The notes below the pieces were generated by a model, which saw only the letters and a program-made list of their open reading frames with translations, ran no database searches and was not told the origin of the DNA. Below, piece after piece: positions 916-6,269 of a stretch of DNA of 64,000 nucleotides. The stretch spans positions 1-64,000 of the forward strand of contig NZ_NBXD01000018.1 in assembly GCF_003399645.1 (NCBI RefSeq), written 5' to 3'. Origin of the DNA: Subtercola boreus. GTDB lineage: Bacteria > Actinomycetota > Actinomycetes > Actinomycetales > Microbacteriaceae. Position numbers and translations under genes: made by a program. The number at the start of each line of letters is the position of its first letter. The stretch's first letter is position 1.

Positions 916-1327
916 ATGGTGTGGGACGAACCACTAATCGCCGGTCTGGACGAGCCCACCGTGCAGTTCTGGGTGGAGCCCACCACCGACGGTGAGATTA
1001 TCGGCAGCACGGGATTCGAGCTGAGTGAGGATCGCAAGCACGCACTGATCCGCAGCGTCGCGGTCGCACCCGCGCACCGCACCGCAGGATCCGGCTCGCG
1101 CCTCGCGCGCTACGCACTGCACCAGGCGTATGCGGCAGGATCGACACGGGCGTGGCTCTTCTCGCGCCGATCCGGCCCGTTCTGGCAGAAGCTCGGGTTC
1201 ACGAGCGCAGACAGGTACGCCCTCGCGTCGGCTCTACCCGAAGCACATCAGGTGCGCCTGTTCGTTGAGCGGGCAGCTCGAACGGGAGGTCGCCTGGTCG
1301 CAGGTCTTGAAAGACGATGCCAGCTGA
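916..1327 (+). pseudogene. GNAT acetyltransferase (ArsN2-like), truncated and frameshifted
   Basis: The first frame carries an acetyl-CoA-binding GNAT core: a strand ending GEIIGSTGFEL, then LIRSVAVAPAHRTAGSGSRL (the Q/RxxGxG/A-type pyrophosphate loop), then FWQKLGF. This is the pattern of arsenic-locus ArsN2-type acetyltransferases. The usual 20-30 N-terminal residues before GLDEP are missing because a stop lies upstream of the ATG. Near base 1265 the homologous frame shifts: the natural-looking C-terminus (SGQLEREVAWSQVL) continues in the next frame to the stop at 1327, while the first frame runs on as basic low-complexity sequence into clpP. Both defects point to a dead gene, although the frameshift alone could be a sequencing error. 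Confidence 0.7.
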
Positions 1328-1359
1328 CCGAACGCTGCCGCGGGTGCCGGGTACGTCGT

Positions 1360-1374
1360 TCTGCTCGCAGCAGA
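1360..1374. promoter_or_regulatory. Predicted PopR-type operator upstream of the clpP pair
   Basis: A perfect palindrome TCTGCT-CGC-AGCAGA lies 56 bp before the ATG of the first clpP gene. From memory, Streptomyces PopR binds TCTGCC-N3-GGCAGA in front of clpP3-clpP4; this differs by one symmetric base and keeps the 3-bp spacer. The same half-sites occur between the regulator and the hydrolase at 3074-3096. Confidence 0.7.
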
Positions 1375-1429
1375 TCGGCTGAAAGCAGCGTGAGCCCCCA
1401 GACAGCGGGAGTGCGAGGAGAGTCAAGCC

Positions 1430-2044
1430 ATGGCAAACGACACCAGACCCCTCATGTTCACCGACACCATGCGACAGCAGCTGCTGCTGAAACGCGTGCT
1501 CGTTCTCGACGGCGCACTCGACGACGACAACGGCATGATGCTCGCGGCCCAACTGCTCGGTCTCGCCGCCGAGGACGCCACCGCTGACATCGCGCTGTGG
1601 ATCCACTCCCCCGGCGGCTCAGTCGCGTCGATGCTCGCGATTCGCGACGTGATGAAGCTCGTTCCCTGCGATGTCTCGACCCTCGCGGTCGGACTCGCGT
1701 GCAGTGCCGGCCAGTTTCTGCTCTCGTCAGGCGCCCCGGGCAAACGCGCTGCCCTGTCGCACGCGCGCATCCTGATGCACCAGGGCTCGGCGGGAATCGG
1801 CGGATCCGCCGTCGAAGTCGAGGTTCAAGCCGGTGATCTGAGGCACATGCGCGAGACCGTGCTGGGAATCATTTCGAACGACACCGGCCAGCCGATTGAC
1901 ACGATCTTCGAAGACTCGCTGCACGACCGCTGGTTCACGGCAGCGCAAGCGCGGGACTACGGCTTCATCGACCGCATCGCAGATTCCTTCGACCAGATTC
2001 TGCCCGGCCGCCGTCGACCGATCGGAATCGGGGTGCAGGCATGA
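1430..2044 (+). CDS. clpP3: ClpP-family serine protease subunit with intact triad (ClpP3-like)
   Basis: A 204-residue ClpP/S14 peptidase subunit. These proteins form heptameric rings that degrade substrates unfolded by ClpX or ClpC. The catalytic residues are all present: Ser92 in GLACSAGQFLL, His117 in HARILMHQ, and Asp166 in HDRWFTA. The substrate-strand motif HSPGGSV (59-65) is also intact. GAGGAG precedes the ATG, and the stop overlaps the next clpP start (ATGA), so the two are translationally coupled. No clpX or tig lies nearby, unlike the housekeeping clpP1-clpP2-clpX locus, so this is the accessory pair. A convergent PopR-like gene and a PopR-type palindrome upstream suggest stress-responsive control, as in Streptomyces clpP3-clpP4. 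Confidence 0.88.
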   Translation: MANDTRPLMFTDTMRQQLLLKRVLVLDGALDDDNGMMLAAQLLGLAAEDATADIALWIHSPGGSVASMLAIRDVMKLVPCDVSTLAVGLACSAGQFLLSSGAPGKRAALSHARILMHQGSAGIGGSAVEVEVQAGDLRHMRETVLGIISNDTGQPIDTIFEDSLHDRWFTAAQARDYGFIDRIADSFDQILPGRRRPIGIGVQA

Positions 2045-2634
2045 GCAGCTACACGATCCCGAACGTCATCGCCCAGCATGCACGTGGCGAACGCATCATG
2101 GATGTCTATTCCCACCTGCTGAGCGAACGAATCGTGTATCTCGGTACCGGCATCGATTCGGGGGTCGCCAACGCTCTCATCGCGCAGCTCCTACATCTCG
2201 AATCAGATGGCACCGGCCAGGAGATCAATATGTACATCAACTGCGAAGGTGGCGATCTCTCGGCGATGCTGGCCATCTACGACACGATGCAGTTCATCAC
2301 CTCGCCCATCGCCACGACGTGCGTCGGCGAAGCCGTCGGGGCCGGTGCCGCTCTCTTGGCGGCGGGCGAGCCGGGTCGGCGCGCAGCCCTGCGGCACGCA
2401 CGTATCGTGCTACACCAACCGGCCGGGCAGGGCCGCGGCACGATTCCCGATCTCATTCTGCAGGCCGATGAACTGGTGCGCATCAGGGCCGACCTCGAGG
2501 GCGTTCTCGCCGAGCATTCCGGTCAGAGTGTCGAGACACTGCGCCGTGACACCGACCGGGCCCGAATCTTCACGGCCGAGGCCGCCAGACAGTATGGCCT
2601 GATCGACGAGATCAGGATGCGACCGCGAACGTGA
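2041..2634 (+). CDS. clpP4: ClpP-family paralogue lacking catalytic Ser and Asp (ClpP4-like)
   Basis: A 197-residue ClpP fold coupled to the previous gene by a 4-bp overlap. It keeps His125 (HARIVLHQP), the LLAAGEPGRR strand and YGLIDEI near the C-terminus. At the nucleophile position the usual GQA(A)SA is GEAVGAG, giving Gly100 in place of serine. At the acid position the expected D-R-D-R-W/F is D-R-A-R-I-F, giving Ala174 in place of aspartate. The NSPGG motif is also altered (NCEGG). By eye this subunit cannot cleave peptide bonds and would act as a structural or regulatory ring partner, analogous in concept to plant ClpR. It is otherwise full length with no stops, which argues for selection as a non-catalytic subunit rather than decay. 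Confidence 0.85.
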   Translation: MSSYTIPNVIAQHARGERIMDVYSHLLSERIVYLGTGIDSGVANALIAQLLHLESDGTGQEINMYINCEGGDLSAMLAIYDTMQFITSPIATTCVGEAVGAGAALLAAGEPGRRAALRHARIVLHQPAGQGRGTIPDLILQADELVRIRADLEGVLAEHSGQSVETLRRDTDRARIFTAEAARQYGLIDEIRMRPRT

Positions 2635-2662
2635 GAGCAGATTTACGACGACGTCGAGAGTA

Positions 2663-3040
2663 TTACGCCGCGAAGGCGAGAGTCATCGTTGTGACCGTGC
2701 CTCCACGCTCGATCGATGGGTGCTGACCGATCTGGTGCCGCGGTTCGACGGCACTCGGCCCCCGCAGTTCTTTCGACAGCAACTCCGTGAGATCGAGGAG
2801 CGTCACTCCCAGGGCTCCCGCGATGGCGGCGATCATCTCACTGGAAGGTTCTTTGAGTCCACGTTCGATCTCGGACAGGTACTGCGGCGAGATACCGGCG
2901 CGGGCGGCCGTCTCAGCGAGCTTGTTACCGTTCGCGAGACGCAGCATCCTCAGCCTTCGGCCAAGAATGTGACGCAAGAGTGGTTCGAGCACAGGGGTTG
3001 TGCGAACCCGAATGGGTGAGGGCGCCTCGCTGCCGGTCAT
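2663..3040 (-). CDS. popR: PopR/ClgR-like XRE-family transcriptional regulator
   Basis: I place the start at an internal ATG (3040), giving 125 residues; the longer upstream frame has no family similarity and would overlap the hydrolase gene. A single Cro/CI-type helix-turn-helix occupies residues ~20-75, with TAARAGISPQYLSEIERG closely resembling the ClgR/PopR recognition helix. In Streptomyces such proteins activate clp operons and are themselves ClpP substrates through a C-terminal Ala-Ala; this protein ends ...LAFAA. It converges on the clpP pair (28-bp gap) and is divergent from a hydrolase gene, with TCTGCT-N3-AGCAGA half-sites in front of both targets. ClgR is the alternative name; the adjoining accessory clpP pair favours PopR. 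Confidence 0.8.
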   Translation of the reverse strand: MTGSEAPSPIRVRTTPVLEPLLRHILGRRLRMLRLANGNKLAETAARAGISPQYLSEIERGLKEPSSEMIAAIAGALGVTLLDLTELLSKELRGPSAVEPRHQIGQHPSIERGGTVTTMTLAFAA

Positions 3041-3073
3041 TCGGCCAGTCAAGCAGAAGGTCGCCGACAGTGC

Positions 3074-3096
3074 AGCAGAATTCTGCTCACAGCAGA
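3074..3096. promoter_or_regulatory. Triple half-site PopR-type operator
   Basis: Three overlapping arms read AGCAGA-AT-TCTGCT-CAC-AGCAGA. The right pair repeats the 3-bp-spaced palindrome found before the clpP genes; the left pair forms a second palindrome with a 2-bp spacer. The site lies between the regulator start (3040) and the hydrolase start (3152), so it can serve both divergent promoters. Confidence 0.65.
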
Positions 3097-3151
3097 GCCA
3101 GGGCCAACTCGGGAAGCGAAGACCGTCGGTGGCATGGGGAAGAGTCAAGGC

Positions 3152-3847
3152 ATGAAGACTATTGTCGTGCCGCCGCTGCTCTGCTCGCCTCTTGCGTACG
3201 TGCCCATTCTCGACACCCTGTGGTCCCGGGGGCAGGTGACGGTCGCAGACACGCGACATGACGACACCATCGCCGGGATGGCCGCACGGATTCTCTTTGA
3301 GAACGAGGGGAGCTTCGCTCTGCGCGGAACGAGCATGGGCGGGTGCGTCGCCCTCGAGGTGATGCGTCAGGCACCGGACCGAGTTCAGGCACTGGCCTTG
3401 GTCAGCACGTCAGCACGCGCAGACTCAGACGAGCAGAAGACAGCTCGTTCACGACAGTCGACCCTTGTGGAAGAGGGCCAGTTCGATGCTCTCATCGACG
3501 CTGCCTTTCCCGGTGTCGTCGCAGCCGAGAATGAATCCGACGACGAACTGCTCGCCCGGTGGCGAGCGATGACAAGACCCGTCGGGCCAGAAGCGTTTCT
3601 CCGCCAACAGCGGGCCGTCGTGGGACGGGCCGACCTCCGAAGCACCCTGGCCAGCATCACCTGCCCGACCGGGATCATCCACGGCACCGGCGACCGACTC
3701 ATACCCTTCGACGCCGCCGAGGAATCGGTAGCCCTACTTCCCAGTGCAAGGTTCACCGCTATCGAAGGCGCCGGCCACCTCCTGTTCTTCGAGCAGGCCG
3801 AAACGGCACGCAACGCCATCGGCGCTTGGCTCGACGACGCGGCCTGA
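3152..3847 (+). CDS. Alpha/beta hydrolase, probable PopR regulon member
   Basis: A 231-residue alpha/beta-fold hydrolase. The nucleophile elbow is GTSMGG (Ser61), the acid is Asp181 in HGTGDRLIP, and the base is His209 in GAGHLLFFE, so the triad is complete. The second ATG of the frame (3152) has GGGGAAGAG seven bases upstream and is preferred over 3134. No signal peptide is visible, so it should be cytoplasmic. Substrate cannot be told from sequence. The gene is divergent from the PopR-like regulator across a triple half-site operator. That makes it a likely co-regulated partner of the accessory Clp protease, although co-regulation does not show shared function. Confidence 0.8.
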   Translation: MKTIVVPPLLCSPLAYVPILDTLWSRGQVTVADTRHDDTIAGMAARILFENEGSFALRGTSMGGCVALEVMRQAPDRVQALALVSTSARADSDEQKTARSRQSTLVEEGQFDALIDAAFPGVVAAENESDDELLARWRAMTRPVGPEAFLRQQRAVVGRADLRSTLASITCPTGIIHGTGDRLIPFDAAEESVALLPSARFTAIEGAGHLLFFEQAETARNAIGAWLDDAA

Positions 3848-4826: not shown

Positions 4827-5485
4827 TCAGCCCCCAGCGAACGACAAACGCAGCCGCTCCGACACCTCGTCAATCGCGCGGGTTCGACTCTCCAGCGCCG
4901 GGAAGGTGAGGAACAGGTGCGGCACACCGGCCACGATGCAGGTGTACTCCGGCACACCTGCGCTTCTGAGCCGGAGCCCGTATTCGACCCCCTCGTCTCG
5001 GAGCGGGTCGCCACCGGCGATCACCAGCGTGGCGGGCGCGACGCCCGACAGATCAGTCCGGCGAAGCGGGCTCGCCTCCGGCTCGAGACGTCGCCGTTCG
5101 TCGGGTACGTAGAGGTCCCAGTACCACTCCATCTCGGCCGTCGTGAGCAGCAGCCCGGCCCCGTTCATCGCAGGGCGGCGATACCGTCGTCGATGGCCGC
5201 GGGATACGGATGCTCGGGGGCCAGACGGCAGTCGACGCTCACGACAGACGCGCCGGCCTTCCGACACAGGTCACGGCACAGTGTGTCGTTCGTGTCGAGA
5301 TCGCCGAGCATCGCCGTCTTGTCCTCGATCAGCACGAAGTCGAAGCCGGCACGCTCGAGAGTGCGGGCGACATCCACGGAGAACTCGCCGTCGAGCCGTT
5401 CTCCCCCGGATGCCCACGGGTCGTTCCACTCGTCGACGCCGAAGTTCAGGAACCACGCCAGATGGAACGGGCGGGAGGCGGGCAT
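4827..5485 (-). pseudogene. Chimeric remnant: flavin monooxygenase start fused to alpha/beta hydrolase pieces
   Basis: Read from 5485 downwards, the first ~55 residues (RPFHLAWFLNFGVDEW..., ending FDFVLIEDKTAM) match the N-terminus of NtaA/SnaA/DszA-type, luciferase-like flavin monooxygenases. In the same frame the sequence switches abruptly to an Abhydrolase_3 esterase segment (VVSVDCRLAPEHPYPAAIDDG) and stops at 5165. A shifted frame then continues with the esterase C-terminus (EMEWYWDLYVP..., LVIAGGDPLRDEG, GVPHLFL) to 4827. The HGGG oxyanion loop and GDSAGG nucleophile region between these pieces are absent. Two different genes were therefore joined by deletion, followed by a frameshift or further deletion; no functional product is expected. 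Confidence 0.75.
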
Positions 5486-5531
5486 GAGACGGGATCTGAC
5501 AGGATGGCCATGGGTCAGCTGCGCGAGGTGG

Positions 5532-6269
5532 TCACCGAGGCTCCCCACCCCGATTCGTACCGCCGTAGGCCGCAGGTACGAGGTCGAGCTGGGGCTCACC
5601 GCTTTCGACCAGTTCGAGGATTGCTTCGGCGACCCGCTCCGGCTCGTCGAAGGCCGCCCCGGCCGTCATCGCTTCCGCGTCAGCACGGCCTGCTCTGATC
5701 GAGCTCAGAAACTCTGTGCGTGTAGCAAACGGGATCATTGTGGAGACGGTGATCCCGGAGCCCTCGAGCTCGTTGCGGGCGATGGCCGAAAGACGCTCGA
5801 GAGCGATCTTCGACGCGACGTAGCCACCCGTTCCCGGCACATCAGCGAACGTCGTCCCGGAGCTGACATTGACGATGGCGCCTGCGCCCCGTCGGCGCAT
5901 GATTGGCAGCACGGCCTGCATCATTGCCAACGGTGCCACGAGATTCAGCTCGAGAACGCCACGAAAGTCGTCCAGTGAGATGGCTTCCATCTCAGCCTGC
6001 AGGCCCTGCCCCGCATTGTTGACGAGAATGTCGATGCGCCCGAAAGCTTCGATTGCGGCCTGGACCAGAGCCGTCACCTGCAGCACATCGGTAACGTCAC
6101 ACCGCACCGCGATCGCTCCCTCGAGCTGTCCCGCGAGTTCTCGCACCCGGTCTTCTCGTCGAGCGGCCAGAACGACGCGTGCTCCGGCGGCGGAGGCGGC
6201 CCGCGCGGTTGCGGCCCCGATACCCGATGACGCCCCCGTGACGATGACCACTGAACCCTCGATCTTCAT
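5532..6269 (-). CDS. Short-chain dehydrogenase/reductase, TetR-controlled
   Basis: A 245-residue SDR: TGASSGIG at 11-18, NNAG at 84-87, Ser136 or Ser137, and Tyr150/Lys154 (YVASK). RR at 37-38 after the second strand suggests NADP(H) preference, as in many YdfG/DltE-like SDRs of this length. It is divergent from a TetR gene, and a perfect 13-bp-arm inverted repeat lies between them, so the TetR protein very probably represses this gene and itself. AGGAG precedes the ATG. The substrate is unknown; many TetR-SDR pairs act on small carbonyl compounds. Confidence 0.86.
   Translation of the reverse strand: MKIEGSVVIVTGASSGIGAATARAASAAGARVVLAARREDRVRELAGQLEGAIAVRCDVTDVLQVTALVQAAIEAFGRIDILVNNAGQGLQAEMEAISLDDFRGVLELNLVAPLAMMQAVLPIMRRRGAGAIVNVSSGTTFADVPGTGGYVASKIALERLSAIARNELEGSGITVSTMIPFATRTEFLSSIRAGRADAEAMTAGAAFDEPERVAEAILELVESGEPQLDLVPAAYGGTNRGGEPR

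Follow-up and report, generated by a model that had tools for sequence, protein, structure and literature searches.

A PopR-type accessory ClpP3-ClpP4 module in Subtercola boreus with a triad-less ClpP4 and a hydrolase probably under the same operator

What is a second pair of clpP genes for, and which genes answer to the palindromes that surround it? The question is raised by the first few kilobases of contig NZ_NBXD01000018.1 of Subtercola boreus (RefSeq assembly GCF_003399645.1), from which a stretch of 64,000 nucleotides (hereafter the window; its start is the contig edge, G000:C18, position 1) was analysed. An original prediction, made from the letters of this DNA, had described two coupled clpP genes, a ClgR/PopR-like gene convergent with them, and an alpha/beta hydrolase gene divergent from the regulator gene; coordinates and Pfam matches agree with this description (CLP_protease twice, at 4e-51 and 3e-61; HTH_3 for the regulator; Abhydrolase_1 for the hydrolase). 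By its sequence, the module is a genuine member of the PopR-clpP3clpP4 backup protease system, which is known in principle. We consider it likely that it specifies a PopR-controlled backup Clp protease made of a cutting ClpP3 and a docking ClpP4, with the hydrolase probably under the same operator in this strain. The features concerned are:

1360..1374 (no strand): distal PopR-type operator of the clpP3 promoter, TCTGCTCGCAGCAGA; perfect palindrome, -70 from the clpP3 ATG
1375..1389 (no strand): proximal operator TCGGCTGAAAGCAGC, abutting the distal one; 10/12 positions, -55 from the clpP3 ATG
1418..1423, plus strand: possible clpP3 -10 element GAGAGT, suggested by the operator-aligned profile of 62 clpP3 promoters; 43 bp from the start of the proximal operator
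1430..2044, plus strand: clpP3-type gene; Ser92-His117-Asp166 intact
2041..2634, plus strand: clpP4-type gene; Gly100 for the catalytic Ser, Ala174 for the Asp, His125 kept, predicted to be inactive
2663..3040, minus strand: popR-type activator gene (HTH_3); C-terminus ...LAFAA (Ala-Ala)
3082..3096 (no strand): single PopR-type operator TCTGCTCACAGCAGA; -56 from the popR start, -70 from the hydrolase ATG
3140..3145, plus strand: possible hydrolase -10 element AAGAGT, overlapping the 9-mer AGAGTCAAG
3152..3847, plus strand: alpha/beta hydrolase with a GTSMGG nucleophile motif; in this strain, a candidate for PopR regulation

The clpP3 and clpP4 reading frames overlap by 4 bases, and the genome encodes four ClpP proteins in all: a housekeeping pair on another contig (C12) and the accessory pair of the window. 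Along with this second pair we found two abutting sites of the TCTGCC-3N-GGCAGA type, a helix-turn-helix (HTH) gene paralogous to clgR, and an Ala-Ala end on its product. The backup module of Streptomyces lividans (Viala 2000, 2002, as cited in PMC9765437, PMC12607617, and PMC9775585) is alike in its accessory clpP pair, its ClgR-paralogue activator with Ala-Ala, and its two abutting palindromes before clpP3. The two differ in that the perfect sites read TCTGCT here and TCTGCC there, and in the divergent hydrolase found here; moreover, the popR self-operator is clear here but weak in nine Streptomyces-like loci (see below), and the triad residues missing from ClpP4 are Ser and Asp here, His in those loci.

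Both TCTGCT-N3-AGCAGA palindromes of the original prediction are exact and lie at 1360-1374 and 3082-3096. They are the sole matches with at most one mismatch in the 64 kb (0.09 expected), and none of 100 dinucleotide shuffles of the window gave two such palindromes. Across the 3.67-Mb assembly, these two are the only exact copies and also the only exact TCTGCY-N3-RGCAGA sites. A genome-wide count of 2 is nevertheless unremarkable, the backwards control pattern occurring twice as well; we dropped bare motif counts as evidence (exact, 2 vs 2 for the control; one mismatch, 43 vs 110). What is unusual about the two palindromes is their placement, not their number. Before the clpP pair, the original prediction had seen one palindrome and overlooked a second site that abuts it at 1375-1389 (10/12); the resulting tandem (1360-1389) agrees at 22/24 positions. 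The Streptomyces operator that it named, TCTGCC-N3-GGCAGA, was right: the full PopR site is given as TCTGCC-3N-GGCGAATCTGCC-3N-GGCAGA in PMC9775585, citing Viala 2000.

We compared the module with related pairs drawn from 60 relatives of the genome itself, named genomes (those kept being Nocardia, Microbacterium, another Microbacteriaceae, Nonomuraea, Tsukamurella, Amycolatopsis, Actinophytocola, and Luteipulveratus), a phylum sample, a family sample, and plasmid records. The family sample most likely represents Microbacteriaceae, judging from the close pairing of named family members with its rows in the tree. Eighty-four sequences entered, and 12 without two separate ClpP matches (L187-L192, L194-L199) were dropped; these were single ClpPs of the phylum sample with an intact triad. 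The remaining 72 pairs, a subset of those found (30 loci at most were taken per search in the phylum and family samples), hold 72 different ClpP4 sequences and are actinobacterial, from several families. Nine Streptomyces-like loci form one clade with L225, the sole named Streptomyces among them. In the family sample, a close ClpP4 relative was found in 58/398 genomes, our own included; we drew no frequency from the phylum sample, where the E limit mixed accessory with single ClpPs (280/396 matched). Plasmids carry such loci too: clpP3-clpP4-popR occurs on large plasmids of Embleya and Prescottella (L226; L227), and a Tsukamurella plasmid has two Clp genes, according to its record listing alone.

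The layout on which the original prediction based its circuit recurs across these loci. A tandem operator scoring at least 18/24 precedes clpP3 in 62/72 loci, compared with 1/1440 single-base-shuffled regions; 49 of these 62 have the proximal site at a distance of 55-57 nt from a clpP3 start that is in frame. The popR homologue, found in 68/72 loci (many were seen with 1500 bases of flank, beyond which popR in L215 and L223, or a more distant hydrolase, could escape), is convergent with the clpP pair in all 68, and its product ends in Ala-Ala in 66/68, the remaining two ending in VA and AV. Within the Streptomyces-like loci, TCTGCC-3N-GGCGAA-TCTGCC-3N-GGCAGA is letter-perfect in 3/9 (L178, L181, L182), and L180 and L186 have the PopR tandem with one base changed. 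The symmetric one-base alteration that the original prediction read in the operator is a real C-to-T change but an ordinary one, that half-site position being C or T among relatives. In the congener L119 (about 5775-5850), at least five 15-bp sites, rather than two, abut in a row in the clpP3 promoter.

A site scoring at least 10/12 also precedes popR in 45/68 loci, 40 of these with the site 54-58 nt from an in-frame popR start (shuffles, 43/1360). In the congeners L117 and L118, the operator occupies the same place before popR, and relatives without the hydrolase keep it at about -55 to -57. Because these two congeners, in which no hydrolase was found, share the site and its position, the 3082-3096 palindrome was most likely popR's own operator first of all, and a self-operator would likely give positive feedback. 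We set aside the idea that the popR-side operator generally belongs to a divergent gene, since the longest frames opposite popR mostly run towards it (22 flanks including the window, judged by eye and without homology) and the site holds its distance to popR. On the Streptomyces fungicidicus plasmid (L225:5254-6141), the annotation names a SigB/SigF-type sigma factor as popR's divergent neighbour.

When the promoters are aligned by their operators, those of popR show a TAnnnT-like -10 signal (T 66%, A 46%, T 60%) at a distance of 44 bp from the start of the operator, and the 62 aligned clpP3 promoters have A at 66% and T at 67% at the matching places. Since the start codon directly follows the -10-like signal, clpP3 and popR messages are probably leaderless. 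That operator and -10 are equally far apart in both promoter sets is in keeping with an activator in contact with RNA polymerase.

Several observations weigh against so uniform a picture. No tandem site was found in 10/72 clpP3 promoters, including four of the nine Streptomyces-like ones (L176, L177, L179, and L225, in the stretch scanned), and 23/68 popR promoters have no site of at least 10/12, the nine Streptomyces-like ones scoring 8-9 only. Nor is the motif confined to the module: its exact copies stand only there in our own assembly, but exact TCTGCY-N3-RGCAGA sites, one or two each, occur in 4/6 genomes without the accessory pair. In one of these settings (L170; G256:C1:3398066-3398080), a perfect TCTGCTCAGAGCAGA palindrome lies downstream of housekeeping clpP2, ~780 bp from its end, with the accessory pair absent.

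Could the regulator instead be ClgR, steering general proteostasis genes, and not a dedicated PopR? Its best NCBIfam model is indeed ClgR (NF041677), and an Ala-Ala end is as reported for ClgR; the model score, however, is 55.2 bits, under the curated 170-bit cut-off, and the genome holds another ClgR-like HTH protein (L229, C13:87479; 44% identity over 61 residues). The operators, with their 3-bp spacer, are likewise unlike the ClgR form GTTCGC-5N-GCG (PMC9775585), and the gene is syntenic with clpP3-clpP4 in 68 loci. A ClgR role thus appears extremely unlikely, and we retain a dedicated PopR. The L229 protein ends in ...LAAR, without Ala-Ala.

The question of why two accessory subunits are kept may turn on an active-site loss in ClpP4 that the original prediction overlooked. 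The Ser-His-Asp triad is present in ClpP3 at 72/72 loci and in ClpP4 at 4/72; housekeeping ClpP triads were intact in 54/54 alignments (27 loci, six genomes counted twice). At the triad positions, the 68 triad-less ClpP4s read AHD (32), GHD (17), SGD (8), SHA (3), GHA (2), or, once each, GND, SSD, ATE, SGE, GHE, and GHQ. In the tree, one clade (100/99) unites the Streptomyces-like loci with His replaced by Gly and a separate one (100/100) the Asp-to-Ala loci L184, L185, and L193, while Ser-to-Ala/Gly loci fall in a third region. A single clade of dead ClpP4s was rejected (p-AU 0.00013, the dead group having been named after the first tree was viewed), with 3 as the fewest dead/alive changes on a second tree built with the triad columns removed and without L126 and hkP1. 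Because a single dead clade was rejected and the losses sit in different regions of the tree, the ClpP4 triad was most likely lost more than once, through different residues. In the parts of the open-access literature on PopR, ClpP3, and ClpP4 that we covered (the two Viala papers were not among them, and subscription work lies mostly outside it), we found no mention of this loss, though an earlier one is possible.

If ClpP4 does not cut, it may dock. In E. coli mature numbering, the ATPase-docking positions are those we take to be Y60, Y62, and F82. ClpP4 has Tyr at the Y62 equivalent in 72/72 loci and Phe or Tyr at the F82 equivalent in 60/72 (His in 11, Leu in 1), and the window ClpP4 carries aromatics at two of the three positions; the F82 equivalent of ClpP3 is aromatic in 0/72 (Leu 52, Ala 9, Ile 4, Thr 4, Val 3). 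The positions were transferred by motif from Y74, Y76, and F96 in PMC9765437. Three findings tell against a clean split: four ClpP4s (L125, L129, L130, L174) keep the full triad, ClpP3 is aromatic at the Y62 equivalent in 68/72 (Trp in 54), and the Y60 equivalent is non-aromatic in both subunits. As far as these residues indicate, the partition between ClpP3 and ClpP4 is clear for catalysis and partial for docking, and ClpP4 most likely acts in a ClpP3P4 core as the subunit for docking and scaffolding.

A triad-less subunit could also be a decaying gene, with the whole accessory pair on its way out. The pair is patchy in the family sample (the 58/398 genomes noted above) and the window ClpP4 is without two of its triad residues, as decay would have it, yet the clpP4 frame is open throughout and its product is 93-97% identical in the two nearest congeners, several ClpP4 positions outside the triad are invariant over the 72 loci, and the ClpP3 triad is intact in every one of them. 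We regard decay as very unlikely and keep to ClpP4 as a docking subunit.

Two known Clp cores offer comparisons. The mixed ClpP3/ClpR core of cyanobacteria (PMC4673316) likewise combines one catalytically complete and one triad-less subunit; this is a works-like comparison, the tree being one of actinobacterial sequences without ClpR. Actinobacterial ClpP4, unlike ClpR, has lost its triad via different residues in different lineages and would be under PopR control. For the housekeeping core of Streptomyces, PMC9765437 reports a ClpP1 serine that is required, a ClpP2 serine that is dispensable, and docking on ClpP2 by each of the three ATPases tested. Labour is divided there too, with ClpP1 cutting and ClpP2 docking the ATPase, but ClpP2 keeps its dispensable serine whereas most ClpP4s are triad-less in sequence. 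ClpP4 looks like the end point of such a division of labour.

There remains the hydrolase, which the original prediction saw as recruited to the regulon. Because six orthologues all begin at the equivalent of 3152, its start was set there, and a start at 3134 was rejected. The 3082-3096 operator then stands at exactly -70 from the hydrolase ATG, just as the distal operator does from the clpP3 ATG. Of the 13 bases that precede each of these two ATGs, 11 are shared, and the 9-mer AGAGTCAAG occurs in the 64 kb only at 1419-1427 (clpP3) and 3141-3149 (hydrolase). We rejected a recent duplication that would have placed the clpP3 promoter in front of the hydrolase, since only 12 of the 42 bases separating operator and leader agree. 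From this geometry, the hydrolase is probably under the same operator, in this strain only, and its co-activation by PopR is plausible. Any such co-activation would probably be weaker than that of clpP3 and strain-specific, because a proximal site is missing, the 42-base stretch is unlike, and the hydrolase lies beside the module in 1/72 loci, that of our own genome.

These same absences bear on a reading in which 3082-3096 serves popR only and the hydrolase is a bystander outside PopR control. No proximal operator stands at -55 before the hydrolase (3/12 positions), and L117 and L118, with the operator at the same place before popR, have no hydrolase that we could find. Orthologues number at least 7/398 family genomes, ours included (E 1e-30), and at least 1/394 in the class sample, our own (E 1e-45), the best 7 candidates per genome being scored in both; on these counts we rejected the hydrolase as a conserved regulon member. 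The six orthologues in other genera sit in genomes with two ClpPs only and no accessory pair, and no operator was found within 300 bases upstream of them (best score 8-9/12). The -70 match, moreover, was spotted after the fact. All of this weighs against PopR control of the hydrolase, while the equality of that distance with the distal clpP3 spacing, and a leader block common to these two genes alone, speak against a mere bystander. We judge the bystander reading to be quite possible, if somewhat short of probable. Recruitment, then, stands as plausible from promoter geometry, but at a site that was popR's own first.

The nearest described relatives of the hydrolase are weak: PcaD-type enol-lactonase models score far under cut-off, and the match to the esterase of PDB 4uhh/4uhc has an E of about 1e-17. 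One may speculate that a split-function PopR protease, whose docking subunit lost its site separately through Ser, His, or Asp, is paired here with a lactonase/esterase-like hydrolase that removes an ester or beta-lactone compound disabling ClpP1P2. We think this improbable as a whole; if true, one operator in this strain would switch on both an alternative protease and inhibitor detoxification.

Combining the published S. lividans circuit with the conserved geometry, we propose the following sequence of steps. Working ClpP1P2 (contig C12) would degrade PopR via its C-terminal Ala-Ala, and PopR would accumulate once ClpP1P2 is lost or inhibited. It would then bind the two abutting 15-bp palindromes before clpP3-clpP4 and the one before popR, recruiting RNA polymerase to promoters that are probably leaderless and have their -10 starting 43-44 bp from the proximal operator's first base. 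The protease so switched on would be split between ClpP3, with its complete triad, and triad-less ClpP4, which retains docking-pocket aromatics, one of them absent throughout ClpP3.

Two neighbouring readings fall outside this scheme. Directly upstream of the module, a GNAT acetyltransferase (window 916-1587; weak ArsN2 match, 64 of 125 bits) has an open frame that crosses the clpP3 operators and enters clpP3 in another frame. At window 4827-5599 (minus strand), an esterase/lipase-like reading is split over two overlapping frames (146 + 144 aa, by eye), perhaps a broken gene.

As far as our searches reached, three things are apparently new: how the tandem and self-operators are spaced across actinobacteria, the ClpP4 triad loss, and the strain-specific hydrolase beside the same operator. 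The PopR circuit, known from Streptomyces, is now mapped base by base in 72 loci from several actinobacterial families, with a fixed operator-to-promoter geometry. Loss of the ClpP4 triad by different routes would give a direct reason for keeping two subunits and offers a testable design rule for mixed Clp cores. Because ClpP3P4 is reportedly insensitive to acyldepsipeptides (PMC12607617), the module may also bear on tolerance of Clp-targeting compounds.

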